From Candidatus Zixiibacteriota bacterium (GTDB lineage: Bacteria; Zixibacteria; MSB-5A5; GN15; JAAZOE01): DNA of 64,000 nucleotides. Numbering within the stretch: the stretch's first letter is position 1; each line of letters begins with the position of its first letter. Under the pieces are notes generated by a model. It worked only from the letters and a program-made list of their open reading frames with translations, had not been told where the DNA came from and ran no database searches. Where the stretch lies: assembly GCA_023138975.1 (NCBI GenBank), contig JAGLON010000004.1, positions 62,001-126,000 on the forward strand. Reading direction: 5' to 3'. The translations under genes and the position numbers were made by a program. Positions 23,931 to 54,196 of this stretch are shown here, in pieces.

Positions 23931-24356
23931 TTAAGCCATCGAAGAATACTTCCAATCAAACGGCCTTTTAGTATAACCATGTTTGACCGGGTTGTAATGA
24001 ATATAATCTATATGTGTGTTTAAGTCAATTTTGTCTCTTATCACATGGTCCCAATATCTATACTGCCATATCCTGCCCCCTCGTTGTTGCAACCGCTTGC
24101 GAAGCTTCATAGAAAAGGATAATTTTATTTTTCGCATTAACTCAGGCAATCTCTTGTCACGAAGCTTAATGAGAAGGTGCATATGATCGGGCAAAACAAC
24201 CCATGAAATCAATTCATATTTCTCTTTCTTTTGGTAAGAGATTATGCTCTCCATTAACAGATCAAAATGCTTAACCAAAATAGGTCGTCTTTTATAGGTC
24301 ACATGAGTCAGGAAGTAAATGTATTCATCGTTTATGAAACGTCTTATGTTAGTCAT
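23931..24356 (-). CDS. REP-associated tyrosine transposase (RAYT, IS200/IS605 Y1 family)
   Basis: A 141-residue single-domain HUH enzyme that cuts and joins single-stranded REP hairpins. The metal-binding HxH is H58-M-H60 in LPDHMHLLIK. The nucleophile is most probably Tyr118 in the motif DYIHYNPVKHG, and WQYRYWDHVIRDKIDL is the RAYT-typical segment before it. The length matches short RAYTs. The ribosome-binding site is weak. Inverted REPs lie on both sides. It appears intact. RAYTs are usually single-copy, vertically kept genes whose host role is unsettled. Confidence 0.92.
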   Translation of the reverse strand: MTNIRRFINDEYIYFLTHVTYKRRPILVKHFDLLMESIISYQKKEKYELISWVVLPDHMHLLIKLRDKRLPELMRKIKLSFSMKLRKRLQQRGGRIWQYRYWDHVIRDKIDLNTHIDYIHYNPVKHGYTKRPFDWKYSSMA

Positions 24357-35514: not shown

Positions 35515-36081
35515 TTACTTTTCTTCTTTATAGCTTGTCGGTAACGGCTTTAGATGCACTTTACTACCATCTTTTCGAACGATCACCCCGGGTGTACCAA
35601 CAACAGTGCAATTGTCAGGAATATCCACCATATAAATAAATGTATTGGCTCCAATATTTACATTGTTGCCAATGGTAAGCGGACCCAAGATAGTCGCGCC
35701 AGTTCCGATTGCTACATTATTACCCATTGTCGGATGGCGCTTTTTCTTATGATGACCGGTTCCACCTAATGTGACATTATGGAATAAAACGCAATTATCC
35801 CCAATCTTGGCAGTCTCTCCGATAACAATTCCAGCTCCATGATCGATAAACAGACCACTCCCGATATTAGCTCCGGGATGGATTTCCACACCGGTAAGAA
35901 ACCGGCTAATCTGGGAGAACATTCTTGGAAAGAACGGAACTCTAAGATTCCAGAGAACATGTATGAAGCGGTGCATAAATATGGCATGAAAACCAGGATA
36001 CAGCAGAAACTCTATATTTCTGGAAGCCGGGTCATTTATCCTGATAGCCTTGGCATCTGCAAAAATTCTTTTAAGTATCAT
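35515..36081 (-). CDS. cysE: Serine O-acetyltransferase
   Basis: This enzyme makes O-acetylserine for cysteine synthesis. The 188 residues are the short form without the long N-terminal helical domain. The left-handed beta-helix hexapeptides run from [15 protein letters not shown] through [11 protein letters not shown]; the catalytic [10 protein letters not shown] and the CoA-contact [11 protein letters not shown] are intact. It sits at the end of a minus-strand run that also contains a cysteine desulfurase and mnmA, a loose sulfur-metabolism association. Confidence 0.94.
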
Positions 36082-36118
36082 CGTGTCTCGTCAGTTTATT
36101 TTCAAATAAATACGTGAT

Positions 36119-38635
36119 TTATTTTTTCTTGAATAAATTATTAATGAATTTATTCGCTTCTTTTTTTAACTTTTCCTCAACTTTGCTTTTAACGGCATCA
36201 TTTTCGGTTGAAATATTGGCAATATCCGGTTTTTCATAGGTCCCGATAATTTTGAAATTTACTTTAACGCGTCCCCGGTCGTCTTTCAATAAATCTCCGA
36301 GGAAATTCATATTTTGCGAATATTGTTCGGACAAATACAATCCAACCTGAAGATCCAGTTTTTTATCGATAAAGGCTATCGTGCCTACGATATCCCAATC
36401 ACCCATTCGATTGAAAACTTTGGTACCATCCAAGAGGAGTTTACCGTCTCGAATGAGAATATCGGAGACCAGGTTTTTAATCTGTTCTTCCTCAAATGTT
36501 TTAAAGCTGAATTTGTCGGCTAACTTCTCTATTAAATCAATGTTAACAATCCGGCCCTCATCAATCTTTACATTGCTCTCAGCACTCATTGACTTGATGA
36601 AGTCTTCGGGTTCACTCCCCCGGCCTGCCAGCCGCCCTTTAGCATTTACCTTACCGAACAGATGCCCGCCAAGATTAGCCAATTGAGTCATAACTTCGTT
36701 GGCTTCAATATTTTCAGCCTGGAATTCCGATTTTACAAACGGTTGATACATATCATTAATATCAACCGAACCATCAGCCTGGATATCTCCGCCATAAATC
36801 ATACACTTGATGTTATGATAAGAAATAATCCCGTCATTGTATTCCAGTCGCCCGGTTATTCCAGTGAACTCCATCTCGCGGAAAATAAATTTATCGACAG
36901 CAATCGTGCCTTGAGCCTCAATATCAGGAATAAATATTGGCAAAGAAGCATCATTGGCCGCAATGGTTCCTGAGGATGATATTGAGGGTGATGAGCTGGA
37001 GGAGGGTGCAGAAGAGGATACTGTCGAGGATGGGTTTTCTACCGCTGCATCCTCAGGCAATAGGATGTCATAATTAATTAGCGATGAAGATAACTTGAAA
37101 TCAAGAGATGGTTTCCTATGCCCGCCTTTCGGCTCTAAAAGATGCGCGAAACCATTCGTAACAGTCCCTGACAGCGACAGATTAACGCCCGGATATTCAG
37201 CGTAAAGCTGTTCGACTTCAACACTGTTTTTCTTAAAGAGGAGATCTATATCAAGCCGTTCCAACGGTGATGTCAGACTATCGTTGTTAAAAAACATCTT
37301 GTCCAACGTCAATCGTCCGAGAACTTTGGTGTTCACCCAATTCGACTTAATCCCGCTAATCGAAAGATCAAAATCAGCATTCCCCTTAAGCTCATTATTC
37401 AGCGATTTATCTAAAAACGGCGTTAAGCCGCTGATATCATAGAGACCTTTTGTCTTCAGGCTATAAGTCAGATCATCCCAGTTTGAAACATTTCCAGCAA
37501 TCGCAAATGGTTTCCCCGAAAGGGTACCTCCGCTTGAAACGAACGAAACTGAATCGGAGTTAAAATCAACTTTGAGCGACTCGAAACTAAGACGTCCGGC
37601 AATATTCTGGTACCCCGCCGTAAGATCGCTAAAAGTAAAACTACCAACCAGATACGGTTGTCTTTTTGATTTTAATTCTATGCGCGACTCAACGTTTCCG
37701 GTTATCTCTCCCTGCAAACGTAAATCATCGGGATTGAAATTTTCACTCGACGGTATATACTTTAGTAAAGGCTCAATTGAGACATCGGAGGCACTTATTT
37801 TGGCAAAAATAGATGACGGGTCTTTGAAATTTCTGATAGTCGATTCAACGTCGAAAGCGATACCGTTGATTTCAAGTCGGGTCTTCTCAAAAGTAATATC
37901 GGAGTTTTGAAAATCAATTCCTGCATTATAAGCCAGCTTGATATCTACGGGGAGCTTATTAGGAAGCAATTCGGAAGTCATAGACGGAATATGAATCGTC
38001 CCATTCGAACGGCCGCTTTTACCATCTGGGTTTAGATGTAAGCGGGATTTCATCGAGAAATTATTCAGTGTGAATTTATATTCCGACGAATCGTCAGTGT
38101 AGATAATATCACCATGATTTATTTCAGCCCAATCAACGGCGAAGGCAGTCATGGCGACTTCTTCCGAGGTCACTTTTTCCTTTGGGCCAAGCGGAGTTTG
38201 TATTGGCTTCCCTCCGGTGTGAATCTCAAAGCTATAATTAACTCTACCGTCGGGAGCTTTACGCAGTTTTAGTACGGGATGTTCAATGATAATTTCCGTG
38301 AATTTATACTCACCCGAAATCAAAGGCAATAACTCGACACCGCATTGTAGTTTGTCTACCGAAACAAACTCTCCGCCCGCAAAATCCTCAGGATTGTAAA
38401 TTCTAATTCCGGTCAATTCCAAATGAGGCGTGGGAAATATAGAAAAAGATATATCATCAAGTTCAACCTGCCGCTGGAGCATATCTTCGGCTTGTTTGAT
38501 CAATTCGCCTTTCAGCCTCTCAGCCGGGAAAAATAATGTCGCTCCTACATAGACAACTATTATAAGCAGAATTCCGACTATAAATAATCGAGTAAGACAT
38601 CCCATTCCTTGAGATTTTTTCTTTTTGTCGACCAT
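36119..38635 (-). CDS. AsmA family envelope protein
   Basis: An 838-residue protein anchored by one N-terminal helix (about 12-34). The start of the mature part, LFFPAERLKGELIKQAEDMLQRQVELDDISFS...PHLELTGIRIYNP, is the classic AsmA-like pattern. A long repetitive beta-rich region follows, and the C-terminal region carries the AsmA_2-like LGGHLFGKVNAKGRLAGRG. A Ser/Pro-rich linker (SSAPSSSSSPSISSS) breaks it near residue 555. AsmA proteins form beta-groove bridges that move phospholipid to the outer membrane, as TamB does; a TamB is encoded further along this strand. Confidence 0.88.
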   Translation of the reverse strand: MVDKKKKSQGMGCLTRLFIVGILLIIVVYVGATLFFPAERLKGELIKQAEDMLQRQVELDDISFSIFPTPHLELTGIRIYNPEDFAGGEFVSVDKLQCGVELLPLISGEYKFTEIIIEHPVLKLRKAPDGRVNYSFEIHTGGKPIQTPLGPKEKVTSEEVAMTAFAVDWAEINHGDIIYTDDSSEYKFTLNNFSMKSRLHLNPDGKSGRSNGTIHIPSMTSELLPNKLPVDIKLAYNAGIDFQNSDITFEKTRLEINGIAFDVESTIRNFKDPSSIFAKISASDVSIEPLLKYIPSSENFNPDDLRLQGEITGNVESRIELKSKRQPYLVGSFTFSDLTAGYQNIAGRLSFESLKVDFNSDSVSFVSSGGTLSGKPFAIAGNVSNWDDLTYSLKTKGLYDISGLTPFLDKSLNNELKGNADFDLSISGIKSNWVNTKVLGRLTLDKMFFNNDSLTSPLERLDIDLLFKKNSVEVEQLYAEYPGVNLSLSGTVTNGFAHLLEPKGGHRKPSLDFKLSSSLINYDILLPEDAAVENPSSTVSSSAPSSSSSPSISSSGTIAANDASLPIFIPDIEAQGTIAVDKFIFREMEFTGITGRLEYNDGIISYHNIKCMIYGGDIQADGSVDINDMYQPFVKSEFQAENIEANEVMTQLANLGGHLFGKVNAKGRLAGRGSEPEDFIKSMSAESNVKIDEGRIVNIDLIEKLADKFSFKTFEEEQIKNLVSDILIRDGKLLLDGTKVFNRMGDWDIVGTIAFIDKKLDLQVGLYLSEQYSQNMNFLGDLLKDDRGRVKVNFKIIGTYEKPDIANISTENDAVKSKVEEKLKKEANKFINNLFKKK

Positions 38636-38675
38636 GCTTTCCCCGGTAATTATATTTGCTTTAATCTAATAAAAA

Positions 38676-39359
38676 CTATAGTTCCAAAGACTCATTCGGT
38701 TTTAAGATAACGACGTCAACACCTGAACCATCAAGCCGTTTTTTGAAATCTTCCGGTTCAGCGTTGATAATATCCCATGTATTATAATGTATTGGAACCA
38801 CAACCTTGGGATTAACAAACTCAACCGCCTTTACCGCATCATCTATTCCCATAGTAAAGTTATCGCCAATCGGCACAAACATTACATCGATATTGTCTAA
38901 TTCCCCGATTAATTTCATATCCAAAAAGAGGCCGGTATCACCGGTATGATAAACTGTTTTACCGCCTATACTGAAGACGAATCCACACGGATTGCCGGTG
39001 TACTCAAGACCTGATTCACCTGCTGCCGACCCATGATGAGCAATTGTTAATTTAACCCGGCCAAATTCAAAACTATAGGCTCCGCCAATATGCATATTAT
39101 GTGCCTGGGCACCTTTATTCGTTACCCATACAGCCAGCTCATTGGGAGCGATAATTGTCGCTCCGGTACGCTTTGAAATAGCGATGGAATCGCCCAGATG
39201 ATCGCTATGGCCGTGCGTGGCAAGGATATAATCGACATCTATTTCTTCCGGTGTTAAAGTCGCCTGAGGGTTACCGGTTAAAAACGGATCTATTACAATC
39301 TTATATTTTCCATCTGTGGCAGAGACACAGGAATGACCAAGAAAGGTAAGTTTCAGCAT
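38676..39359 (-). CDS. UPF0173 metal-dependent hydrolase (MBL fold)
   Basis: A 227-residue metallo-beta-lactamase-fold protein of the UPF0173/YtkL group. Metal ligands are visible as HGHSDH (about 50-55), a further His in IAHHGS, Asp in HTGDTGLF, and the final His in VPIHYNTW. The substrate is unknown. It is transcribed with mnmA upstream (84 bp) and the AsmA gene downstream (40 bp). Confidence 0.9.
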   Translation of the reverse strand: MLKLTFLGHSCVSATDGKYKIVIDPFLTGNPQATLTPEEIDVDYILATHGHSDHLGDSIAISKRTGATIIAPNELAVWVTNKGAQAHNMHIGGAYSFEFGRVKLTIAHHGSAAGESGLEYTGNPCGFVFSIGGKTVYHTGDTGLFLDMKLIGELDNIDVMFVPIGDNFTMGIDDAVKAVEFVNPKVVVPIHYNTWDIINAEPEDFKKRLDGSGVDVVILKPNESLEL

Positions 39360-39443
39360 GTATTCCTCTCCACTTTATAATGAATTATTAATCAAGAAAG
39401 ATAACTCTGGTAAATCAACAATAATTAATTGAACAGAGAGCAA

Positions 39444-40544
39444 TTAGTCAATAATACCACCGGCAAGAACCGTACCCCCGTCAAAAATAACCGCAGATTG
39501 TCCCGGTGTAATTGCCGGTTGAGGAGACTCAAAGAGTATTCGCAGGCGGCCTTTCGATTCCGGAACTATTTTTGAGGGACAGGCTGAGTGCTGATAGCGG
39601 ATTTGAGTGAGTCCGTCAAACGGCTCATTGGTCGGAGATTTTGAGACCCAGTTTACTTGAGATATCGTAAACTCATGGGAGTGGACAGCTTTCTTGTTGC
39701 CGACGACAACACGATTGTTGCCGACATCAATTTTATTGACATAAAGAGGCGTTGGATTGGAAATCCCCAAACCTCTCCTTTGGCCTATGGTATAGAATGG
39801 TACGCCTCTGTGACGTCCGAGTATATTTCCTTCTTCATCAATGATATCGCCAGGCGGAATATCTTTATCTGTCCGTTCACGGATAAACCGTTCGTAATTA
39901 TTATCCGCAATAAAGCAGATTTCCATACTTTCAGCGACTTTTGCCGTTTTTAGTCCGGCTTTTTCAGCAATCACCCGGACTTCCTTTTTCTCTAAATTTC
40001 CAAGTGGTAAAAAGGTTCTCGCCAGCGCCTCCTGAGAAATACCCCAGAGCGCATAGGCTTGGTCCCGGGTGCAGTCTATTCCCCGGCGGAGGTAATTGCG
40101 CTGTTCAGATTCATCGAACCCGGTAATGGCATAATGGCCAGTCGCGATATAATCACAACCTATCCCTCGGGCGTAGCGCAGAAACATTTCCCATTTAATC
40201 TCGGTATTGCACAGGACACAGGGATTTGGAGTCCGGCCTTTGCTATATTCTGTAACGAAATTTTCGATTACGGTGTTTTTAAACTCTTTGGAGAAATCTA
40301 TGACATAGTGGCGGATACCAAGATTTTCGCAGACGGTTCGGGCATTGTTGATGGCGTTGAGGTCGCAGCAACCGCCGTCGGCACGAGCATGTTCCTGGCC
40401 TCCAACGTCACTGTAGTCCCAGAGCTTCATGGTCGCGCCATAGACAGTATAGCCCTGCTCTTTCAGCAAATAAAGAGCTACCGAGCTGTCAACCCCGCCC
40501 GACATGGCCACCAGAATATGTTTATCTTGATTTTTCCGACTCAT
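39444..40544 (-). CDS. mnmA: tRNA-specific 2-thiouridylase MnmA
   Basis: This enzyme installs the 2-thio group on U34 of Lys, Glu and Gln tRNAs. The 366 residues carry the PP-loop AMSGGVDSS at about 13-21, the first catalytic Cys in TPNPCVLCN, the second in AESMEICFI, and the tRNA-binding C-terminal beta domain. It starts 36 bp after the cysteine desulfurase gene, which would supply the persulfide sulfur. The pair is a common association in bacteria without the full Tus relay; no tus gene is present here. Confidence 0.96.
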   Translation of the reverse strand: MSRKNQDKHILVAMSGGVDSSVALYLLKEQGYTVYGATMKLWDYSDVGGQEHARADGGCCDLNAINNARTVCENLGIRHYVIDFSKEFKNTVIENFVTEYSKGRTPNPCVLCNTEIKWEMFLRYARGIGCDYIATGHYAITGFDESEQRNYLRRGIDCTRDQAYALWGISQEALARTFLPLGNLEKKEVRVIAEKAGLKTAKVAESMEICFIADNNYERFIRERTDKDIPPGDIIDEEGNILGRHRGVPFYTIGQRRGLGISNPTPLYVNKIDVGNNRVVVGNKKAVHSHEFTISQVNWVSKSPTNEPFDGLTQIRYQHSACPSKIVPESKGRLRILFESPQPAITPGQSAVIFDGGTVLAGGIID

Positions 40545-40580
40545 AATTGTTTATACGTCGGGAGTTAAAGATCCGTCAAC

Positions 40581-41750
40581 TTAAGCCGGCTTTTTATAAG
40601 CCGCTGACATTTCCCGCAGCCGGTTTATAATCTCCGGTAATACCGAAGCGGTGTATTCAAGCTGCTCTTTAGTGGTATCCTTGCCCATCGAAAAACGAAT
40701 TGATCCTTGAGCCAGTAGAACATCCACATCCATAGCCTTTAGGACATGGGAGGCTTCGAGAGAGCCCGAAGTACAGGCTGAGCCAGATGAAACGGCGATA
40801 CCTTTGATGTCCAGAGAAAGGATAATAGCCTCTCCCTCAACACCCAGGAAAGACAGATTGACTGTTGATTTAACCCGGTTCTCGACAGAACCATTTAGAA
40901 AGACATCAGGAACTTTTGACTGAACTTCGTTGATGAAGAACTCACTGAGCTCTTTCATACGAGCTTGTTCTTGATCTATTTTTCCAATCGCGATTTCCAT
41001 CGCTTTGGCCAATCCGACTATAGATACTACATTTTCGGTACCGGCTCGTTTGCGCCGCTCATGGGCGCCGCCGTGAGACAGCGGAGTAATCTTGGTGCCT
41101 TTGCGGATATACAGAACGCCTATTCCTTTGGGGCCATATACTTTGTGACCCGATAAAGAAAGCATATCGATGCCCAGGTCGTTCACATTTACAGGAATCT
41201 TTCCAATTGCCTGAACCGCATCAGTATGAAAGACAACGCCAGCTTCTTTGCAAACGGCAGCCATTTCTTTGATCGGCTGAATAACTCCGGTTTCATTATT
41301 GGCCATCATGACTGACACCAGCGAAGTTTCAGGCTTAATCGCCTTTTTCAACTGCTCAATTGACACAATGCCATCATGGTCACAACCGATATAATCGGCA
41401 GTAAAACCATTCTTTTCCAGAAAATGAACCGATTCGAGTATGGCATGGTGCTCAATTAGTGAAGTTATGATATGATTGCGGTTTTTCTTTAAACCGGAAT
41501 AAGCCGCACCCTTGACCGCTAAATTATCGGCTTCGGTACCGCCTGATGTAAAATATATCTCCGAAGGTTTGGCGCCCAGAAGATTCGCGATTTTCTCGCG
41601 AGCTTCTTCCATGAGTACTTTCGCCTTTTGTCCCATATTATGAACCGATGAGGGGTTGCCGTAGGTTTCAGACATATGCTTATACATCTCGGCAATAACA
41701 TCCTCGTGCATCGGGGTTGTGCTGTTGTTATCAAGGTAAATTTGTTCCAT
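40581..41750 (-). CDS. NifS/IscS-type cysteine desulfurase
   Basis: A PLP enzyme that releases sulfur from cysteine as an enzyme-bound persulfide. I start at the ATG at 41750 (MEQIYLDNNSTTPM), the usual N-terminus; a reading from 41765 adds five residues with no ribosome-binding site. PLP contacts: NETGVIQP, HTDAVQAIGK, and the Schiff-base Lys in LSGHKVYGPKG. The persulfide Cys is in SSGSACTSGSLEASHVL. The length (389) fits group I enzymes. It lies directly upstream of mnmA (36 bp) and is not part of an isc or suf operon here. Confidence 0.94.
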   Translation of the reverse strand: MEQIYLDNNSTTPMHEDVIAEMYKHMSETYGNPSSVHNMGQKAKVLMEEAREKIANLLGAKPSEIYFTSGGTEADNLAVKGAAYSGLKKNRNHIITSLIEHHAILESVHFLEKNGFTADYIGCDHDGIVSIEQLKKAIKPETSLVSVMMANNETGVIQPIKEMAAVCKEAGVVFHTDAVQAIGKIPVNVNDLGIDMLSLSGHKVYGPKGIGVLYIRKGTKITPLSHGGAHERRKRAGTENVVSIVGLAKAMEIAIGKIDQEQARMKELSEFFINEVQSKVPDVFLNGSVENRVKSTVNLSFLGVEGEAIILSLDIKGIAVSSGSACTSGSLEASHVLKAMDVDVLLAQGSIRFSMGKDTTKEQLEYTASVLPEIINRLREMSAAYKKPA

Positions 41751-41856
41751 AATACTCTCACTCATTAGTGTAATATATGTATTTCAAGTTGGCTACCCAT
41801 AATAGTACAAAACGGTTATATTGTCAATCCACTTTACCACAATTATCCTCTTTCGC

Positions 41857-43815
41857 CTAAAAGGCATACAGAATGGTAATATGCCACCGATCTCCTTTAC
41901 CATAGCCTTCTCTATCAAGCCGATAAGCGTAATCAAGGCGAAGCGGTCCGGCTGGGGACATGAACTGCAGTCCGGCTCCGTAAGAGAACAATAATTTGTC
42001 AGGGCTCAGGTCGGAAAGAGACTCAAACCCGTTACCAATATCTACGAAGGTTGAACCCCAGAATTTCCAGAATAGGGGGAATCGAAATTCCTGATTGAAT
42101 ATAAAATACGCGTTAGATCCAACATTGACTGTTTGCTCGGAAAAAGAACTATCATTTGGATTAATTGTGTATTCGGTTACCCGTGGGCCGATTGAATTTT
42201 CATCAAAACCGCGAATAGAGTTTGCTCCGCCTAAATAAAAACGGTCATTTAGTGGCACCTCGCTGGATGAGCCGAATTCTTTTACCCAGCCCCCCTTGAG
42301 GCGAGTGGCATAAATAATGCTTGCAAACCCGGGTTGGTAACGGGCCCAGGAGAACTCAAACTTCAAAAAGCTATCATCCCCGCCCAAAAAACCACCGACA
42401 TATTGAGTAAAATAAGTTGTATAAGAACCTGATTTCGGGACAAATTTATCGATGCGGGTATCTCGTACGATAACAGCAGTGAATTTTCTCCGGACACTAA
42501 TTTCTTGCTCATTCTTAATTTCCGCCGCTGCAATATCACTTACGGCATAAATATTCACGTTTTCATATTCACCTGAGAATACGGCATAGAATTGCTCTGA
42601 CCATTCCTTACGAGTGGATAGCGCCAGAAGCCATTTCTGAATCCGATAGTCCTGAATTTGTGAGCGTACCCCCGGTTCGAACCGGGCCGTTAAAGTAATC
42701 GGAAGTCGAAATCCGGCAAACCATGGGTCAGTAAACCGCATCTGGTATCGATGCCGGATGATGCGCCAATCGGTAAAAATGACAAAGCGTGAGTTAATTG
42801 AAAACTCTACCCGACGTGAAGTAAAAATATTTCGTTTTCCCCACGAGGTGGAAAAATCCCAGGTTAAATCCTGGAGAGAATCCTGACTGGCGCCGGTCTT
42901 AAGGGCAATGTAATGGGCTTTTCGTTCGATGGCTGAAAAGCGGAAATCGGGGTTAATATCAAGCGTCTTTTCTTTTCCATTACCACCGTTCTTTTTGGAG
43001 AAATCCAAATTTATAGAATTGAACAACCCGGTTCGATAAAGTCTTTTTTGCGTGTCGAAAATTTTTTCACGGCTATACGGTTCACCTTTTTTAAAAGTTA
43101 TTTCCCGACGGGCCAATTCAGGGGAATAGATTCTAAGACTATCAATAAGCACATCACCAAATCTAACGAAAGGTCCCTCACTGCCAGTAATGAATATTTT
43201 CGTGTTTTGCGGTCCAAGAGAGCTGTCAATTTTGTGGATAAACTCAGCATAGGGATATCCATTATTGGAACAAACAGTTTTCAGGCTGAATAGAATCGTA
43301 TTGAGCTTCACCGGATTAACCGGCTCGCCAACTCTCATATTATGGGCTAAATCTCTGATGGTTCTGGCAAACGGCAGACTATCATTAATGGTTAGTCTCA
43401 CTTCTCCGATTATAAACCGACGGCCCTCATTAATGCTAATATAAATAATCGCGCTGGAATCTACCGGATAAACCTCCACTTGCTCGTTGACTATTATATT
43501 AAGAAAACCTTCTTTCAGATACAGATATTGAACTTCGAGGGTGTCGCGATTAACGGTATAACGGAGGACTTTATTTCGAGAACCGGATTTAAGCGACTGC
43601 CAAATGCTGTTAGTCCGGGAATAGAGTCGGGAACGTATCTTGGAATCCGAGAAGAATTCGTTGCCTTCAATATTAATAATAGAAATATATGGTTCATCGG
43701 CCAGCCATGAACGATACAGCTTATCTCTCTTGTAAGCAGATTGCGCCGATATTGATGCCGCGCAGAAAAAACAAATCAGCGATAAAATGATTATAATAAA
43801 ACTTCGCCTTAACAT
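41857..43815 (-). CDS. tamA: Omp85-family TamA/BamA-like outer-membrane protein
   Basis: An outer-membrane assembly barrel of about 652 residues. The signal peptide follows the ATG at 43815 (MLRRSFIIIILSLICFFCAASISA), the better start; the reading from 43836 lacks a ribosome-binding site. POTRA repeats cover about 40-300 (ISIINIEGNEFFSDSKIRSRLY, and FGDVLIDSLRIYSPELARREITFKKGEPYSREKIFDTQKRLY). The C-terminal barrel has the diagnostic GGANSIRGFDENSIGPR loop and ends in Phe. It begins 8 bp after the tamB stop, the pairing that identifies it as TamA-like rather than BamA. The exact client proteins are unknown. Confidence 0.88.
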   Translation of the reverse strand: MLRRSFIIIILSLICFFCAASISAQSAYKRDKLYRSWLADEPYISIINIEGNEFFSDSKIRSRLYSRTNSIWQSLKSGSRNKVLRYTVNRDTLEVQYLYLKEGFLNIIVNEQVEVYPVDSSAIIYISINEGRRFIIGEVRLTINDSLPFARTIRDLAHNMRVGEPVNPVKLNTILFSLKTVCSNNGYPYAEFIHKIDSSLGPQNTKIFITGSEGPFVRFGDVLIDSLRIYSPELARREITFKKGEPYSREKIFDTQKRLYRTGLFNSINLDFSKKNGGNGKEKTLDINPDFRFSAIERKAHYIALKTGASQDSLQDLTWDFSTSWGKRNIFTSRRVEFSINSRFVIFTDWRIIRHRYQMRFTDPWFAGFRLPITLTARFEPGVRSQIQDYRIQKWLLALSTRKEWSEQFYAVFSGEYENVNIYAVSDIAAAEIKNEQEISVRRKFTAVIVRDTRIDKFVPKSGSYTTYFTQYVGGFLGGDDSFLKFEFSWARYQPGFASIIYATRLKGGWVKEFGSSSEVPLNDRFYLGGANSIRGFDENSIGPRVTEYTINPNDSSFSEQTVNVGSNAYFIFNQEFRFPLFWKFWGSTFVDIGNGFESLSDLSPDKLLFSYGAGLQFMSPAGPLRLDYAYRLDREGYGKGDRWHITILYAF

Positions 43816-43823
43816 TGTCTCTT

Positions 43824-46800
43824 CTAATACTCCCATTGAAATTTAAAACTAAAATGATACAAGTTAAACTCGTCTCGACGTCCCTCAAAAAGATAATGTT
43901 TGCTCAATCGATATTCCAGACCAACTTCCTGCCCTTTATTGACATCAAAATAACTGCTTCCAAAGATGTAAAGATTCGGCAGAGTGTAGGTTCCAATTGT
44001 CACCCGTGTCCCCGAAGGATTAAACCCGCCCGCTGCATCAGGGTTAATTTCAAACGTCTCAACTCCTAAAGTCCTCGTACCGATGCGCGAAGCCTGATTC
44101 GCCAAAAGGTTAGCCCCGCCTACTTCAATTCTATTGGAAAATGAGCTTGATGAGCCACTCGATTCCACATTTGAATTGGTTAGAATCGTTAGTAGGATAT
44201 TTTCGTTTGATATCGGAGCATCGCCGGTAACAGTAATAATCGGCTTATTCAATGTCCCCGAAACCAAAAGCGGTAGCTCATACGAATAACTATCCTCTGT
44301 TTCATATCCGGTAAAACGGGATTGAGTACGAATCCGGGTCGTAATTTCCAGATTCAACCTCGGATCAAGCTCTTCAATATTATCATAGATAATCTGCCCG
44401 CCCGGAATTATCCTGAATTTCTTATCAAACAGATAGTACTTCCCACGAATTACTTCGAGCGTACCCAGGAAATTATACACTCCCGCAACTCGTCTGATGT
44501 TCAACGAGCCACCGTACTCGGCGTCAATATCATCATTCTTCGTCCAAAAATTAGAGGGACAATCGACCATGAGGTTTAGGTTCCAGGATTTATCAGCTTC
44601 TAAAGCGGTCAGAATACTAAAACCGCTCTCCTCCTCAAAGCTCTCACGATAGTATGCATTATGAACCTTGATGGTACCCACAACGGTTGGAGGAGTTTGA
44701 CCGGTGATAATAATGTCGGCATCCGCCAAACCGGTAAAATCTCCCAATTCATAATTGAGCGGCATTTGCTCACAGGTGGCGTTGATGTTAAAAGTAAAGA
44801 TGCTGATATCGTTGATAATAATATCTCCCTCGGCGAATATCTTACCCGGTATCTTGCTGTCTTTATGAGGCATTAAAGCCTGAGCCTTGTCTATTTGGAC
44901 CCGATTGTCCTGGAGCGTAAGGGCAACTTCGACTTGTTCAAGTTTATCTTTTAGATCAATCAGTTTTATTTCACCGTTGTTAAGTTGGAAGTTCCCATTA
45001 AGATGCGGTTTCAAAGGCTGGCCGGAGAGCTTTATGTCGGCCCAAAAATCGCCAATCATGTATTCCACTGACTCAAGAACAAAAGCGGCTAAATCAAGAC
45101 GTTTATCTTCGGCATGAATTGTAATACTCTGTTCGCGCTCATCGAATAATTCATGATCCATCGACAAGGCCAGGTTTATCGGGAACTCGCCTTGGGCAGT
45201 GTATATACCTTCTTCCGATTTTAAAAAGCAGGAATCTATATGCAAGAGTGTATCATTATAAGTTAAGAAAGTTCGCAAATCTCCTAAAACTAACTCTTGA
45301 TATGTTAATGAATCCAAGGTTGCTTCAAGTTCAAAATATGGGTTGCTAAAGTGTCCTTGAATATTCCCATTAGATGACAGTATCCCATCAATTTCGAGGC
45401 TGTCATTTAATAAATCAACCCATGGCCCGGCGGAAATGCTTTTTATATTCCAATTCAGATTCAGCGATTCGTCGTAATTAGCCCTACCATCCACATCAAT
45501 AAAACCGTTCGAACCTTTAATATTAATATTGCTGAGAATAAAACCTGTACTATCAATTAAGATTACCTGACTCCCGTCAGAATAGAAAAATCGATCGCTT
45601 AATTCAATTTCCAGAGTATCCAATCTAAGCTCCCGTGGATATTTCTCATAATCCAGCACCCCTATCGAACTTATCTGAGAAAACTGATTGGAAACCACAA
45701 CGGTATCTAAAATAAGTAAATTACTGTCAAGAGTCATTTCAGCAAAAATAGAATCATACGGAAAACTCCAGGCATCACCGCTACGGCTCCAAACTTTTAC
45801 CGGTCCTTTTTTCCGTTTTACAAAGCTCTCGATATTAAATTCCGTGTAAAAATCAGTCGAATAAAAGTCATAAAAGAAAACCGAATCGGATTGAAAGGTC
45901 CCGGATAAGGCTGGATCTTTAGTTGGACCAGTGAAATTAAAACTGGCTTTCCCTACCCCGGCCGGGAGATCAATAAATGTCTGATGAGTAAATCGGGATA
46001 GATTTTCAAAATTTGCACGGCAGGTCAGATCCAGGTTCCCGCGATAATTGACATCGCCTTCACACAAGAATTGATTTTCATAATAATCAAATCTATATCC
46101 GGGGAATAGATAGAGCCCATTTCTGGTTATCGTCATCTGGCCAGAGGACTGATGAAAATGATATCTATCGAAGTACGATTCATCAAGCTTGGTGTCGATG
46201 TCGATAGCCATAGTTTCTGATTGCAGACCACGCCCGTTTAATTCCAGATGCCCAGATAAATCTGATGAAAAGGAATTGGAGATCAAATCAGACAGATTGA
46301 AATTTTTAATATCGGCCGACAAATTATATCCCGACGGCGCCGATCCGAAACTCATTGAACCAAAGCCGTTTATTTCGCACCCGTTTAACACTGTCCCGTG
46401 AAGTGAATCGAAATATACATTTTTATCGCTAATATGAAACCGAGCGTTGAGCGAATCAAATTGTCGCTTGACAAAATCTCCGCTTATCAGAAGATCACCG
46501 CCAAAACGGCCAAACTGCGAATATAGCGAGCCCCTGACGTTCAAATTACCGGATAATCGTGAACCTACAAAAGATATAAAGTCCTGCAAATGGATTCTCG
46601 ATTGCTCAATAGTTACTTCTGTCCAGAGCTCCTTAGTCTGATCTAAAACCAGCGAGAAGTTGATATGCGATGAGTCCGTTTGGATGTTCACATTCTGCAA
46701 TGCTATTTTCTTATGAAAGATTGTTGCCAGCCCCGAAGCATGATTAACTCGCAGACGCCCGTCATCGGAATTAAAACGCATTGATTGGATACCGACGGTT

Positions 46801-47345
46801 AATGTGCCCTCTTCGGAGCGGGCTGTCGAGTTGAGCTGAACATCATACCACTTATAAACCGTGTCACCGACATTGAAAACAAACTCTCCCCCGGTGATTT
46901 GTATATTACCCACCTGCCATGAAGGCATGATATTGCCGGATGATCCTTTGGCGGCTATCTGGGGAAGAATAATTTTCCCGGAATCGTCCTGTATTAGATA
47001 GACCTGGGGATTTTCAAGTTTTAAAGTATCGACTATCCATTGCAGGTTCCAGATATCCGACATGTTATATTTCATTGATATTCGGGGGAGATAAGCTAAG
47101 GTATATGATGTGTCCGGCCGGTTATATTTGACCATAACATCTTTCAGGGAAAACCCATTAACAAACGAACCGTCAATCTCAGATATTATAACTTCAAGCC
47201 CGTACTCATCGGCCAGCTTATCGGCCAAGTACCGGTTTACCCAGTTTTCGAGAATATGCGACTGATATAAAAGTACTAGCCCGACAATGACTGCAAGCGC
47301 CATCATCACGGCTCCAAAAAGCGGTATTTTAAATCGTTTACGCAT
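43824..47345 (-). CDS. tamB: TamB-like translocation and assembly module protein
   Basis: An 1173-residue protein with a single N-terminal membrane helix (about 9-29) and a very long beta-taco body. The C-terminal DUF490/TamB domain is recognisable: TVVGTIKVHNAYYRESF, LNIRRVAGVYNFLGTLEVIRGKYYLF, FRIIPGGQIIYDN, GTLNKPIITVTGD, and the terminal segment ending FKFQWEY. In the family it spans the periplasm, partners TamA, and helps phospholipid and outer-membrane protein transport. It overlaps the CMD gene by 8 bases and precedes tamA by 8 bp, so the three are clearly co-transcribed. Confidence 0.9.
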   Translation of the reverse strand: MRKRFKIPLFGAVMMALAVIVGLVLLYQSHILENWVNRYLADKLADEYGLEVIISEIDGSFVNGFSLKDVMVKYNRPDTSYTLAYLPRISMKYNMSDIWNLQWIVDTLKLENPQVYLIQDDSGKIILPQIAAKGSSGNIMPSWQVGNIQITGGEFVFNVGDTVYKWYDVQLNSTARSEEGTLTVGIQSMRFNSDDGRLRVNHASGLATIFHKKIALQNVNIQTDSSHINFSLVLDQTKELWTEVTIEQSRIHLQDFISFVGSRLSGNLNVRGSLYSQFGRFGGDLLISGDFVKRQFDSLNARFHISDKNVYFDSLHGTVLNGCEINGFGSMSFGSAPSGYNLSADIKNFNLSDLISNSFSSDLSGHLELNGRGLQSETMAIDIDTKLDESYFDRYHFHQSSGQMTITRNGLYLFPGYRFDYYENQFLCEGDVNYRGNLDLTCRANFENLSRFTHQTFIDLPAGVGKASFNFTGPTKDPALSGTFQSDSVFFYDFYSTDFYTEFNIESFVKRKKGPVKVWSRSGDAWSFPYDSIFAEMTLDSNLLILDTVVVSNQFSQISSIGVLDYEKYPRELRLDTLEIELSDRFFYSDGSQVILIDSTGFILSNINIKGSNGFIDVDGRANYDESLNLNWNIKSISAGPWVDLLNDSLEIDGILSSNGNIQGHFSNPYFELEATLDSLTYQELVLGDLRTFLTYNDTLLHIDSCFLKSEEGIYTAQGEFPINLALSMDHELFDEREQSITIHAEDKRLDLAAFVLESVEYMIGDFWADIKLSGQPLKPHLNGNFQLNNGEIKLIDLKDKLEQVEVALTLQDNRVQIDKAQALMPHKDSKIPGKIFAEGDIIINDISIFTFNINATCEQMPLNYELGDFTGLADADIIITGQTPPTVVGTIKVHNAYYRESFEEESGFSILTALEADKSWNLNLMVDCPSNFWTKNDDIDAEYGGSLNIRRVAGVYNFLGTLEVIRGKYYLFDKKFRIIPGGQIIYDNIEELDPRLNLEITTRIRTQSRFTGYETEDSYSYELPLLVSGTLNKPIITVTGDAPISNENILLTILTNSNVESSGSSSSFSNRIEVGGANLLANQASRIGTRTLGVETFEINPDAAGGFNPSGTRVTIGTYTLPNLYIFGSSYFDVNKGQEVGLEYRLSKHYLFEGRRDEFNLYHFSFKFQWEY

Positions 47346-48021
47346 TTTGTTCGGCGGTAACTTTCCTAAGTATTTTCTGCGCCGTTAGGCAATTCTTCCG
47401 GGAGCAAAACAGTCCGCAGTTGGTCATAGTTTCAAACAGCAATTTTTTTTCGGCTCCGGTATTCAGCGCTCCCCTAATATGTGCCCCAAGCTGATTGACA
47501 TATCCGGTAACTGTCAACGTCGCCGTTACTGACAGCTCCCTCAATCTGAATGAAACTCCGGGTCTTGATAACACCTGCCCATATCCATCATTTATCATCC
47601 ATGTCAATATCTGAGGCGAAAACGAATTGATATACGGTATCAGGCGATCAAATGCCGAACCATAAATTTTCCTTATTTTTTGCAATCCGTTTCGGTTCCA
47701 GCTCCCGGTAGTTTTACTATTATATGCCTCTGGAAGTTGACTCTTTTTATATCTTCGAGGATGGATTTCGGCGAATGCCCGAGCGGCTTCTATCATCGCT
47801 GGAAAACCCAAAAACAAATGCACCTGCAAAATAGCTTCATCTATCATTTTTGCCGAAACACCGTCGTCAAGAGCCGCCTGCATCAGCATTCGGCTCACCT
47901 CATCGGCCCTTCCCGCAATTGAGGCTGATAACATGGGCAGATAGAAGTACTCCACCTTCCAACGCTTCGTAAAATCTCTTTTCAGAGCAGCAATGATTGC
48001 TTCATCTATAATATTCACCAT
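47338..48021 (-). CDS. Carboxymuconolactone-decarboxylase-fold protein
   Basis: A 227-residue all-helical protein with two CMD-like units (about 30-90 and 130-205), for example EAILQVHLFLGFPAMIEAARAFAEI and RELSVTATLTVTGYVNQLGAHIRGALNTGA. The CxxC peroxidase motif of AhpD is absent: the first unit has VHLF where the cysteines would lie. It may therefore be a gamma-carboxymuconolactone decarboxylase-like or unknown enzyme, or a binding protein. Some cysteines (CGLFCSRKNC) occur near the C-terminus and could bind metal. It is embedded between the pseudo-HtrA and TamB genes. Confidence 0.7.
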   Translation of the reverse strand: MVNIIDEAIIAALKRDFTKRWKVEYFYLPMLSASIAGRADEVSRMLMQAALDDGVSAKMIDEAILQVHLFLGFPAMIEAARAFAEIHPRRYKKSQLPEAYNSKTTGSWNRNGLQKIRKIYGSAFDRLIPYINSFSPQILTWMINDGYGQVLSRPGVSFRLRELSVTATLTVTGYVNQLGAHIRGALNTGAEKKLLFETMTNCGLFCSRKNCLTAQKILRKVTAEQNA

Positions 48022-48066
48022 AGATGCATAAACTAAAGGGGTGAAACAAGAAAGGCAAGATAAACT

Positions 48067-49257
48067 TTAGCGGGGCTGGCGAAATCGATTGATTAATCGA
48101 TCTAATTCGAGCTGCATCCGACGCATCTCGTTTTTCATGGAGTCAATTCTCTGCTGAATCTCAAAAGCGGCCAGAATATCCTGCTTGGAATCTGAGGAAC
48201 CGGAGACGTTCGCAGTGAAATTACTTTGACCTGGCATAATCGAAAGGGCTATCCGAACGGAGTAATTATTCTGGCCTCGAAGGAAATCAATCGTTACAAT
48301 ACTATCAGGCCCGGCGTTCAAAATCATTTGCTGCAATTGTCGATTACTGGTAATCTTCTTTCGGGAAAAACTGGTAATAATATCACCAATGCTCAAACCC
48401 GCAAAAGCTGCTGGGGATTCCATCGCCAAATCGGCAACAACGACCGCTTCTCCCAGAATCGTACCGTCATCGGTTACCAGTTCAATTGAGGTTGTGCGGA
48501 CTCCCAAATATCCGGCATCCCGGCTACCGCTGCTGATAATTTTCTGAGCCGCCAAAAAAGCTTCACCGGCCGGTACCATGATGATTCCGCCCCAGACAGG
48601 GCTATTTGTTTCAGGGCCGCTAACGCTTCCGGCACTGATTATCCCTATTAACCGGCCTGATAAATCGAAGACCCCGCCCCCCAAAAGTCCCGGTAGGACT
48701 GTTCCGGACATGAGGAAAGTACCATCGGCCTGCTGTCCGGCAATAACCCCCAGAGTCGGATACCCGGTCAACCCGATAGAGCGTCCATATGACAACGCCA
48801 TCCGTCCCATCAACGGCGGATAGGGAGAAAGTTCGACCGGATGATTGTGCTTATCGGTAATTTTCAGGACGGCCAGATTCAGACGCCGGTCAATTCCAAC
48901 CAGTTCCGCGCTGACCTTACGCCCATCAATATCAACATGATAATAATCAAAGCCATCGACTAACGATTGAATCGTAAGAATATGTCCGGAAGAATCGACG
49001 ATAATCCCGCTTCCCAGAACCGATTTGACCGGATTATAATAATTGCTGTTCTGCCCCCGGTAAAACGGCGCGGAACCTTCACCCAGACGAGCTTCAACGG
49101 TTACCACCGATTGGGAGACATTACTTATTATAGTAGAAATTTCACTATCGAGAGCTTCGAGACTCTGACTCACAACAACGCTAATAAGTAAAATATAAAC
49201 CGAAAAAAAAACCGCCGCAAAACGGGCGGTTTTTTTGGCTTGATCAGTTATCCTCAA
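48067..49257 (-). CDS. HtrA/Deg-like protein with all three catalytic residues replaced
   Basis: A 396-residue membrane-anchored protein with a trypsin-like domain (about 40-230), one PDZ domain (about 250-340) and a C-terminal coiled coil (360-396). The fold motifs of HtrA are kept but the triad is not: where HtrA has TNNHVV this has TIQSLV (His to Ser98), DLAVLKI is NLAVLKI (Asp to Asn127), and GNSGG is GLLGG (Ser to Leu192). It should be a pseudoprotease, perhaps a sensor or scaffold. The start codon is TTG at 49257, overlapping the anti-sigma stop as TTGA, with AGGAG upstream. A membrane helix covers about 12-30. Confidence 0.85.
   Translation of the reverse strand: MRITDQAKKTARFAAVFFSVYILLISVVVSQSLEALDSEISTIISNVSQSVVTVEARLGEGSAPFYRGQNSNYYNPVKSVLGSGIIVDSSGHILTIQSLVDGFDYYHVDIDGRKVSAELVGIDRRLNLAVLKITDKHNHPVELSPYPPLMGRMALSYGRSIGLTGYPTLGVIAGQQADGTFLMSGTVLPGLLGGGVFDLSGRLIGIISAGSVSGPETNSPVWGGIIMVPAGEAFLAAQKIISSGSRDAGYLGVRTTSIELVTDDGTILGEAVVVADLAMESPAAFAGLSIGDIITSFSRKKITSNRQLQQMILNAGPDSIVTIDFLRGQNNYSVRIALSIMPGQSNFTANVSGSSDSKQDILAAFEIQQRIDSMKNEMRRMQLELDRLINRFRQPR
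49204..49236 (-). terminator. Terminator-like hairpin inside the 5' end of the pseudo-HtrA gene
   Basis: A perfect inverted repeat with ACCGCC / GGCGGT arms, extended by A and T runs, spans codons 8-18 of the pseudo-HtrA gene. On the minus strand it reads as a GC stem followed by TTTTTTTT, the form of an intrinsic terminator, 21 bases after the TTG start. It could lower expression of the downstream genes relative to the sigma and anti-sigma genes. Coincidence of Lys/Ala/Phe codons cannot be excluded. Confidence 0.45.
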
Positions 49258-49940
49258 TAAACAGCTCCTGTGTTTATGGCATTAGCCGCATTCGGAATCA
49301 CCAGGTAATTCTTAACAACCGGACGAACTCGAAATGCGGGCACTGTCGCCGGCATACCAGAGGCCGTTAAGGTTGTCTGTGACGCATTACTCAGTAATTG
49401 TTCAACCGCTATATTTGTCCGAAGCGATTTGGAATACTCCCGAAAACGATTGTACTGCTGTACCATTGTCGATACACTCTTACGCTCGTTTAAAAGAGGA
49501 TTATCGGTCGGTTGTGCCGTCAGATACAAATCGTCTGACTGACCGTTAGTCGTATTAGCCACTTGCGGAGATGAGGGCGCTAAAAAATCATTGCTGAAGT
49601 TCATACCGAACCCCAGACTTAGGACAATAACAGCGGTAGCGGCATAGGTCGCCAAACGCATTGAGCCGAATCTTGGGATTCTCTTCGGCATATAAGCTTT
49701 TGAGCGTTTTTCCGCGAAATTTTCCTGTCCGATCTTCTGAAACAGCCGGGCATTAAAATCGTCCGACGCCTTGAGTTGAGGCAAATCATCATATGATTTG
49801 TTCAAAGACCGGTATACATCAAGCTCTCTTCGGCAGGAAGGACAATCATCAAGATGATGTTCAATCCGCGCCGCAACTTCAGGGGCAGTTTCCCCCTTAG
49901 AAAAAGTTGACAGGAAGGAGCGCACCTTTCGACAACGCAT
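49254..49940 (-). CDS. Zinc-finger (zf-HC2/ZAS) membrane anti-sigma factor
   Basis: A 228-residue inner-membrane anti-sigma factor. The ZAS zinc site is Cys3 with HHLDDCPSCRREL (His27, Cys32 and Cys35 or near). A single membrane helix follows at about 95-115 (LATYAATAVIVLSLGFGMNF), then a periplasmic domain of about 110 residues. In the family the cytoplasmic domain holds the ECF sigma factor until proteolysis releases it. The ATG overlaps the sigma gene by 44 bases, and its stop overlaps the pseudo-HtrA start. Confidence 0.9.
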   Translation of the reverse strand: MRCRKVRSFLSTFSKGETAPEVAARIEHHLDDCPSCRRELDVYRSLNKSYDDLPQLKASDDFNARLFQKIGQENFAEKRSKAYMPKRIPRFGSMRLATYAATAVIVLSLGFGMNFSNDFLAPSSPQVANTTNGQSDDLYLTAQPTDNPLLNERKSVSTMVQQYNRFREYSKSLRTNIAVEQLLSNASQTTLTASGMPATVPAFRVRPVVKNYLVIPNAANAINTGAVY

Positions 49941-50499
49941 TCCGTTCCTCCATTCTCGGTTTAAGCTTATCTCTCAGAATCGAGCGGGCTCGATTCACGC
50001 GGGACTTGACAGTACCCAGAGGTACTGATAATACCCGGGCAACTTCGTCATAAGGCATTTCTTCGATATCGCGGAGTAAAAACGCAGTCTTGTATTTTTC
50101 CGGCAGAGTGTCAATTGCTTTCTGCAGGATCGGGCCAAGGTTTGAGGGAACTTTGGCATCGACCGACGCTTCTACTTCTTTGTTCTGCATATCGAATATA
50201 TCCACAAAGGTATATTTCTTGTTTCGGCGTAGTTCATTACGGGCCAGATTCAAGGCTATAGTATATAACCAGGTTGAAAAACAGTGTTTGAAATCGAATT
50301 TGTCCCGATGCTGATACACGCGTAAGAACGCCTCCTGAATAATATCTTCAGCGCATTCCCGACTGATTCGCATCCGCCCGATCACATTCATCAGACGATC
50401 ACGATAGCGGTTTACAAGTTCGCTAAAGGCGACCATGTCGCCATCTTGAACCTGCCGCAGCAGTCTGTGATCCAGTTCTTTTGCTGTCTCTTTTGCCAT
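49897..50499 (-). CDS. rpoE: ECF RNA polymerase sigma factor, RpoE-like
   Basis: A 200-residue group 4 sigma factor. Region 2 (about 12-85) shows FSELVNRYRDRLMNVIGRM, AEDIIQEAFLRVYQHRDKFD and FSTWLYTIALNLARNELRR. Region 4 (about 125-180) shows LPEKYKTAFLLRDIEEMPYDEVARVLSVPLGTVKSRVNRAR. Region 1.1 and 3 are absent, as in all ECF factors. It heads a minus-strand run with its anti-sigma, the pseudo-HtrA, CMD, TamB and TamA genes, so envelope stress control of TamAB is likely. The unusual promoter-like elements upstream are listed separately. Confidence 0.93.
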   Translation of the reverse strand: MAKETAKELDHRLLRQVQDGDMVAFSELVNRYRDRLMNVIGRMRISRECAEDIIQEAFLRVYQHRDKFDFKHCFSTWLYTIALNLARNELRRNKKYTFVDIFDMQNKEVEASVDAKVPSNLGPILQKAIDTLPEKYKTAFLLRDIEEMPYDEVARVLSVPLGTVKSRVNRARSILRDKLKPRMEERNALSKGALLPVNFF

Positions 50500-50529
50500 A
50501 CTTCTCCCGTGGTCTGTAAGTAATACATC

Positions 50530-50548
50530 TCAGACGGCGGAAAGTTCC
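50530..50548 (-). promoter_or_regulatory. Possible ECF-type control elements upstream of rpoE
   Basis: Read towards rpoE, GGAACTTT (an ECF -35-like box) is followed after only three bases by CCGTCTGA (an ECF -10-like box). The standard spacing is about 16 bp, so they cannot be one promoter in the usual sense. Either the true -10 is further on and the second box is fortuitous, or these are parts of a regulatory site. Confidence 0.3.
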
Positions 50549-50756: not shown

Positions 50757-50820
50757 GGTAACCCAAGGCATCAGCCTTGGGAAACAGAAATCACCCACGG
50801 CTGAAGCCGTGGGATACCAA
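50757..50820. repeat. Compound palindromic element (two hairpins)
   Basis: GGTAA, hairpin CCCAAGGC-ATCA-GCCTTGGG, spacer AAACAGAAATCA, hairpin CCCACGGC-TGAA-GCCGTGGG, then ATACCAA. The same two-hairpin order and nearly the same spacer recur at 53915-53976. Confidence 0.75.
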
Positions 50821-50866: not shown

Positions 50867-51208
50867 CTAAATGCTATCTTCAGGTAAAGTTAGAGAAATT
50901 GGTTCTCGCCAAAACTTTACCATAATGCTATCGCCTAGTACAAAATAACACTCCGGCCACTCAGCAAATCTTCCTCTTGGAGGTTGAAATCGCCAAATTT
51001 CTAATCCTTCGAAAGATGAATCAATTGTAGCTGGTTCACCCATTATCTCAATAACTTCATTCTTAGTAATTCCAGGTATTAATTGCTTTACTAAATTATC
51101 ATATCTAGCATGAGTTATTATTAGCCATACCCAACATATAATCAATAGTGCAATAGTAAAAAGAAATGTTCTCAAAAGTATCTTCTTAATACATTGTATA
51201 TTTATCAT
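50867..51208 (-). CDS. SmpA/BamE-like small membrane-anchored protein
   Basis: A 113-residue protein with an N-terminal hydrophobic segment (about 10-32) and an extracytoplasmic domain that begins with the SmpA/BamE pattern YDNLVKQLIPGITKNEVIEIMGEPATIDSSFEGLEIWRF: the G-x-T-k-x-e-V helix followed by an MGxP turn and a Trp-containing strand. There is no lipobox; the helix is probably an uncleaved anchor. It is monocistronic, with a palindromic repeat just past its 3' end. A BamE role is not implied by the fold alone, since many small exported proteins share it. Confidence 0.6.
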   Translation of the reverse strand: MINIQCIKKILLRTFLFTIALLIICWVWLIITHARYDNLVKQLIPGITKNEVIEIMGEPATIDSSFEGLEIWRFQPPRGRFAEWPECYFVLGDSIMVKFWREPISLTLPEDSI

Positions 51209-53838: not shown

Positions 53839-54196
53839 CCAATCGAGCCCATCCCGTTGGGGACGGAAAGTCCCTTCGGGTGGGGTTTGAGGTCTCCGCC
53901 ACACATATACAATCGGTACCCCAAGGCTTCAGCCTTGGAAAACAGAAATTACCCACGGCTGAAGCCGTGGGATACCGAATTACGTTTACGAGGCAGTAAA
54001 TCCAATCATTTACGCGACAGCCTCTAACAGGCAACGCCTGAAAAGGGACAACGTCCCCCCAGATTATTCTTTTGACAAAACGTGGATTGAAACGTATATA
54101 TTATGTAGCACATTGTTTTCCGCAACTGGAAAACAGTTCATCTCGCACCGTAAAGAATTCTTTGAAATCTATAATTTGTCACAAGGAGAAAACGGT
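53839..54196. other. Repeat-filled leader region before the dockerin gene
   Basis: It contains the compound two-hairpin element (53915-53976), a CCCATCCCGTTGGGG-like palindrome near 53850 and further small stems at 54028-54040 (CAGGC-AA-CGCCTG type) and 54044-54056 (GGGAC-AAC-GTCCC type). An in-frame upstream extension of the dockerin ORF from 54113 is probably untranslated. Confidence 0.5.
53915..53976. repeat. Second compound palindromic element (two hairpins)
   Basis: GGTACCCCAAGGC, loop TTCA, GCCTTGG, spacer AAAACAGAAATTA, then CCCACGGC-TGAA-GCCGTGGG-ATACC. The second hairpin is identical to that at 50794-50813; the first differs by its loop (TTCA for ATCA) and an outer base. Confidence 0.75.

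Follow-up and report, generated by a model that had tools for sequence, protein, structure and literature searches.

An ECF sigma factor and TamAB locus of Candidatus Zixiibacteriota with a predicted transcription terminator in the signal-peptide codons of a degenerate HtrA gene

Does an ECF sigma factor whose gene stands at the head of a tightly packed run ending in tamB and tamA drive the whole run, so that TamAB dosage rises under envelope stress? The question is raised by a window of 64,000 nucleotides (the whole stretch of DNA that was analysed) from a Candidatus Zixiibacteriota bacterium. In E. coli rpoE-rseABC and Pseudomonas algU-mucABCD, an autoregulated ECF sigma factor gene lies beside that of a membrane anti-sigma factor, and the Pseudomonas cluster includes the HtrA protease MucD. 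The locus studied here resembles them in having an apparently autoregulated ECF sigma factor adjoining a membrane anti-sigma factor and, as in Pseudomonas, an HtrA-type gene. It differs in that the anti-sigma factor is of the zinc-finger and not the RseA/MucA type, in that the HtrA is catalytically dead with a predicted terminator inside its gene, and in that CMD, TamB and TamA genes follow with a predicted promoter of their own.

The six genes and their order in the phylum

The features of the locus are the following.

49897..50499, minus strand: ECF sigma factor, sigma2 plus sigma4 (Pfam Sigma70_r2 and Sigma70_r4_2; orthologs)
49254..49940, minus strand: anti-sigma factor, zinc-finger type, one apparent membrane helix (zf-HC2; alignment; overlaps)
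48067..49257, minus strand: pseudo-HtrA with TTG start, signal peptide, trypsin-like domain without H, D and S, one PDZ and a C-terminal helix (Pfam Trypsin_2 and PDZ_2)
47338..48021, minus strand: CMD (PcaC-like) protein, two-part, without CxxC (Pfam CMD; NCBIfam decarb_PcaC below cut-off)
43824..47345, minus strand: TamB (PF04357, 128.9 bits, cut-off 22.4)
41857..43836, minus strand: TamA-type Omp85, the likelier start being the ATG at 43815 (Pfam Omp85 and POTRA)
50524..50548, minus strand: ECF-type promoter, putatively autoregulatory, GGAACTTT-N13-TGTA (GGAAC conservation; perfect match in the window)
49203..49236, minus strand: predicted intrinsic terminator AAAAAAACCGCC-CGTTTTGC-GGCGGTTTTTTTTT in the pseudo-HtrA signal-peptide codons (KKTARFAAVFFS) (hairpin scan, covariation, codon bias)
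49265..49269, minus strand: Shine-Dalgarno-like AGGAG ahead of the pseudo-HtrA TTG start (sequence)
48030..48058, minus strand: predicted sigma70-like promoter TTGCCT-N17-TAGTTT, 8 nt before the CMD start codon (conserved in gaps)
41799..41827, minus strand: sigma70-like promoter TTGACA-17-TATTAT before nifS, at the cluster end (sequence)

ORF calls and translations of the window agree with the original prediction on the six minus-strand ORFs (sigma, anti-sigma, HtrA-like, CMD, TamB and TamA) and on the five junctions between them, three of which are overlaps (44, 4 and 8 bases) and two are gaps (45 and 8 bp); all six names are backed by Pfam matches above cut-off. The description of the run as unbroken holds for the ORFs but not for the transcription signals, since a terminator is predicted at 49236-49203 and a promoter-like element lies at 48058-48030.

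The sigma factor, about 200 aa long, consists of sigma2 and sigma4 only and is of the ECF type by its Pfam matches. Its score against the NCBIfam RpoE equivalog TIGR02939 is 123 bits, below the 236-bit cut-off, and it is therefore not assigned to RpoE. A close homologue is found in 71 of the 81 genomes of the window's order and in 116 of 133 genomes of the phylum. The anti-sigma factor has the marks of a ZAS protein: a zf-HC2 match of 31.9 bits (cut-off 22.2), an HHLDDCPSC motif and a hydrophobic stretch. The two genes overlap by 44 nt (49897-49940), as they do in most loci across the phylum, and this constant overlap may serve translational coupling.

TamB matches PF04357 up to its last residue, and its translation begins with a signal anchor. 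Its neighbour is an Omp85 barrel with POTRAs, distinct from BamA. The equivalog model for TamA, NF047950, gives it 100 bits, below the 625-bit cut-off, and the best NCBIfam model is that of BamA at 228 bits, also below its own cut-off of 297. The name TamA is reasonable because another, BamA-sized Omp85 (788 aa) is encoded elsewhere in the same genome (G000:C47).

A search of named genomes with the sigma protein gave eight loci, of which seven belong to close relatives and six of these seven carry the label of Candidatus Zixiibacteriota. About 100 loci were compared, and their gene order was mapped with profiles. Sigma and TamB genes lie at most 6 kb apart in 62 of the 63 testable loci of the order, the exception being genome G034, whose TamB gene lies some 170 kb from sigma. 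In other families of Candidatus Zixiibacteriota the two are linked within 8 kb in 18 of 26 cases; tested loci of families f6, f12, f16 and f17 have sigma, anti-sigma and HtrA genes with no TamAB nearby. Loss of TamAB linkage in close relatives, which had been named as grounds for doubt, is thus confined to G034, whereas several distant families are indeed unlinked. In family f3 the HtrA gene is mostly missing between anti-sigma and CMD. One genus (L041, L044, L133 and L143) has no CMD gene here, and only a 167-nt gap separates the HtrA gene from TamB. These comparisons confirm the gene order sigma, anti-sigma, (HtrA-like), CMD, TamB, TamA and show it to be old.

A tamB gene next to an Omp85 gene is a feature shared with the TamL-TamB, TamA-TamB and BamA-TamB operons (PMC4494059); the Zixibacteria locus differs from these by the addition of sigma and anti-sigma, pseudo-HtrA and CMD genes upstream. 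The word 'sigma' is absent from the text of that survey, and no description of a TamB-ECF locus was found in open papers, which is weak evidence of novelty as subscription papers lay outside the search.

Several other features were noted around the locus. Downstream, a nifS-mnmA-metallo-hydrolase-AsmA(-cysE) block (35515-41765) is widely syntenic in the order and, with its AsmA, places two AsmA/TamB-like proteins within about 15 kb. Upstream of sigma, 50867-51208 encodes a small protein that resembles BamE weakly, the score lying below cut-off. Paired palindromes (CCCACGGCTTCAGCCGTGGG and CCCAAGGCTGATGCCTTGGG) occur at 50760-50815, also upstream of sigma, and again 3 kb off at 53920-53971; the window's genome has 14 such sites and the reversed control 0. 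They are likely to belong to a REP/RAYT-type family, because the window also carries a Y1 (IS200-like) transposase gene (23931-24356).

A hairpin at the end of the sigma unit

Loci of the order were scanned over the 120 nt after each stop codon for a hairpin with a T-tract at ≤ -10 kcal/mol. After the anti-sigma gene, such a terminator is present in 64 of 68 loci (60 of 68 at ≤ -14), as compared with 12 of 274 for the other five junctions (2/69, 3/55, 5/56, 1/48 and 1/46) and 237 of 5094 random windows. The loci with no hairpin, or a weak one only, are L051, L055, L147 and L152. By its G+C-rich hairpin, its T-tract and its conservation, the element qualifies as a predicted intrinsic terminator; an Rfam search of the window gave no matches.

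In families f1 and f4 and in genome G033, the pseudo-HtrA ORF starts before the hairpin, and the stem and tract encode part of the signal peptide: in the window, AAAAAAACCGCCCGTTTTGCGGCGGTTTTTTTTTCG translates as KKTARFAAVFFS. The hairpin lies 20-29 nt past the pseudo-HtrA start codon in most loci. Within the family this distance is 26 nt in six of seven members and 29 in the other, and in three members the anti-sigma stop codon has shifted by 33-35 nt, yet the distance from the HtrA start is kept. The possibility that the HtrA start is misannotated and that the true start lies past the hairpin was rejected: in 15 of 48 loci the frame offers no start codon beyond the hairpin, and a start in that region would do away with the signal peptide. 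Families f3, f5, f18 and f19 have an intergenic terminator at the same site, f3 mostly without an HtrA gene. In the genus that lacks CMD, a different hairpin has been rebuilt at this site together with a different signal peptide.

Promoters and the expression of the run

Outside family f2, related GGAAC elements occupy the position of the ECF-type promoter ahead of sigma in the loci of the order that were examined. The exact pattern GGAACTTT-N13-TGTA, which lies about 25 bp upstream of the sigma gene and is matched perfectly in the window, occurs once per genome and only before sigma in six of seven family genomes; as a sequence pattern, this is a signature of autoregulation. When the motif is relaxed, matches in the window's genome (19) do not clearly exceed those of the reversed control (15), and we therefore name no wider sigma regulon. 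Before CMD, the element is of another kind. TTGCC is found in 36 of 48 HtrA-CMD gaps, as compared with 4.6% of windows, and in 34 it is followed by a -10-like element about 17 nt on, although in the window the -10 is imperfect (TAGTTT). The presence of this conserved sigma70-like promoter before CMD suggests that tamBA probably has its own supply of transcription and does not depend on the ECF sigma factor alone. As the promoter element ends 8 nt before the CMD start, the CMD mRNA is predicted to be nearly leaderless. The promoter is close to the CMD start in most relatives (48021-48030 in the window), and the message from which CMD-tamB-tamA is translated may be leaderless.

We consider it probable that three expression regimes are arranged head to tail: an autoregulated sigma unit with an in-gene attenuator, a pseudo-HtrA reached by read-through, and a separate CMD-tamB-tamA unit. 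The gene order, the dead triad, the conserved hairpin with its U-tract and the ECF-like and sigma70-like elements are there to be read in the DNA; termination strength, read-through, promoter activity and the adaptor role discussed below are inferred from them. Sigma and anti-sigma would be transcribed from the autoregulated ECF promoter, and most of this transcription would stop shortly after the anti-sigma gene, at the strong intrinsic terminator, which in the window's family and its sister families falls within the signal-peptide codons of a catalytically dead, one-PDZ HtrA. Because the signal peptide begins upstream of the terminator, a transcript for the exported, full-length pseudo-HtrA must come from RNA polymerases that pass it. 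Passage could be plain leakage, or a ribosome at the pseudo-HtrA start, 20-29 nt before the hairpin, could block its folding. Either way, pseudo-HtrA would be scarce relative to sigma and anti-sigma, while CMD, TamB and TamA would be made from their own housekeeping-type promoter with a minor share of read-through from the sigma unit.

One possible elaboration, which we hold only tentatively, is that the attenuator is regulated. Ribosomes at the pseudo-HtrA start would decide whether the hairpin forms, so that pseudo-HtrA, and some TamAB, is made only if translation closely trails RNA polymerase, and the stopped transcripts would be non-stop messages calling for ribosome rescue, as with brfA. 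The conserved spacing just described speaks in its favour, as do the overlapping or abutting of the HtrA start and the anti-sigma stop in most loci, the strong U-tract and the ORF that stays open through it. The spacing could, however, come from signal-peptide length alone. A search for an antiterminator upstream of the hairpin found none (a mean of 5.56 of 8 matched, versus 5.48 in shuffles), so regulated read-through would have to depend on ribosome position alone. brfA is a precedent for a rho-independent terminator within a coding region that yields mRNA without a stop codon (PMC6881298), and the terminated messages here would likewise end before any stop codon of the pseudo-HtrA frame. 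But the brfA terminator is near the 3′ end and its truncated protein works (PMC6881298), whereas that of pseudo-HtrA comes early in the gene, within the signal-peptide codons towards the 5′ end, and only a signal-peptide fragment would remain. In the open-access literature, we found no paper on a terminator of such form within an anti-sigma operon. At this point we may also speculate, with a good deal of doubt, that the signal-peptide codons double as the stop of the sigma operon in such a way that ribosome entry reports the translation pace of an exported protein, and so sets the amount of PDZ adaptor and of TamAB read-through for feedback on the anti-sigma factor.

Another reading, which was that of the original prediction, is that the run is a single stress operon in which the sigma factor drives everything as far as TamA, coupling the switch directly to TamAB dosage. 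The shared strand, the tight junctions and the linkage in the order and beyond it are all compatible with this, and read-through beyond the terminator could still occur. But the prediction had itself pointed to internal promoters or terminators as what would speak against it, and both are predicted here: a strong terminator conserved after anti-sigma, even in G034 with its TamAB elsewhere, and the conserved sigma70-like promoter before CMD. Furthermore, a pattern search before CMD and TamB did not find the exact ECF-type promoter. Direct coupling is thus not supported, and we regard a single sigma-to-TamA transcription unit as unlikely.

It is still less probable that the hairpin is a real RNA structure with some other task, such as marking an RNase site or limiting the translation of pseudo-HtrA. 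Compensatory changes were seen at 8 of 10 pairs among 32 equal-length hairpins, with a covariation score reached by none of 500 shuffles; these loci were picked because their outer pairs form, which biases the paired percentage upward but does not explain the swaps of pair type. Such covariation shows the helix and not its function. However, the T-tract is as strongly conserved as the helix, its Phe codons being TTT in 84 cases and TTC in 2 (2516:2435 in cluster genes), and in families without an overlapping HtrA start, a hairpin of this shape closes the sigma unit from an intergenic position. Finally, the idea that the hairpin simply follows from conservation of the signal peptide (TA...AVFFS), the RNA being under no selection, can draw on conservation of the motif in two families but is rejected in view of the paired changes, of the Phe codon bias, of family f3, which keeps the hairpin without the ORF, and of synonymous recoding, which mostly loses a terminator present in 48 of 51 real genes at ≤ -10 (46 of 51 at ≤ -14) and in 645 of 2040 recodings (32%; 15% at ≤ -14).

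The degenerate HtrA and what the locus may mean

The HtrA-like protein of the window has the trypsin-like and PDZ domains of its class (Pfam; PDB HtrAs at E 5e-22) and lacks the His-Asp-Ser triad, the positions aligned with those of DegP being changed from H to S, D to N and S to L. In families f1-f4, the His and Ser of the locus HtrAs are always replaced, and so is the Asp, except for five f4 genomes in which an Asp is aligned there. The earlier view of a dead HtrA-like protein in the place of MucD/DegP is thereby borne out, the protein being degenerate throughout the order. Most locus HtrAs of families f12-f19 keep the Ser and have lost the His; the full triad is seen only in family f10. In the tree, f10 forms a group with f9, f11 and the window's order that has a support of 0.999, the support of deeper nodes being weak. 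Because of this placement of an intact triad, the simplest reading would be an intact ancestor followed by several separate losses. The window's genome encodes two more HtrAs, both with intact triads.

Given its signal peptide, its PDZ and its place beside the anti-sigma factor, pseudo-HtrA most likely acts in the periplasm as a PDZ adaptor to modulate the anti-sigma factor, standing where an ancestral protease once stood. Of 25 aligned anti-sigma factors, 22 end in Tyr or Phe, and this end might be a PDZ ligand; the idea is weak, as the aromatic residue is absent from three family members (L031, L033 and L035). A parallel is MamO of magnetotactic bacteria, which has the fold of an HtrA and, despite its degenerate active site, has kept a function, and such pseudoproteases arose independently several times (PMC4794232). 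MamO serves magnetosomes, whereas the pseudo-HtrA of Zixibacteria, which lacks the whole catalytic triad, is part of a sigma-factor locus.

If the preferred reading of three regimes is right, the locus would be a clear case of one DNA stretch selected both for a protein and for a transcription stop, and the terminator would account for the conservation of the peptide motif AVFFS, which might else be put down to protein function. Its position in signal-peptide codons would allow a simple reporter test of ribosome control over intrinsic termination. More broadly, an HtrA at an envelope-stress locus has been retained as a protein although its protease residues were lost, probably on several occasions, and TamAB, about whose regulation little is known outside Proteobacteria, appears tied to the locus of an envelope-stress sigma factor across much of an uncultured phylum.
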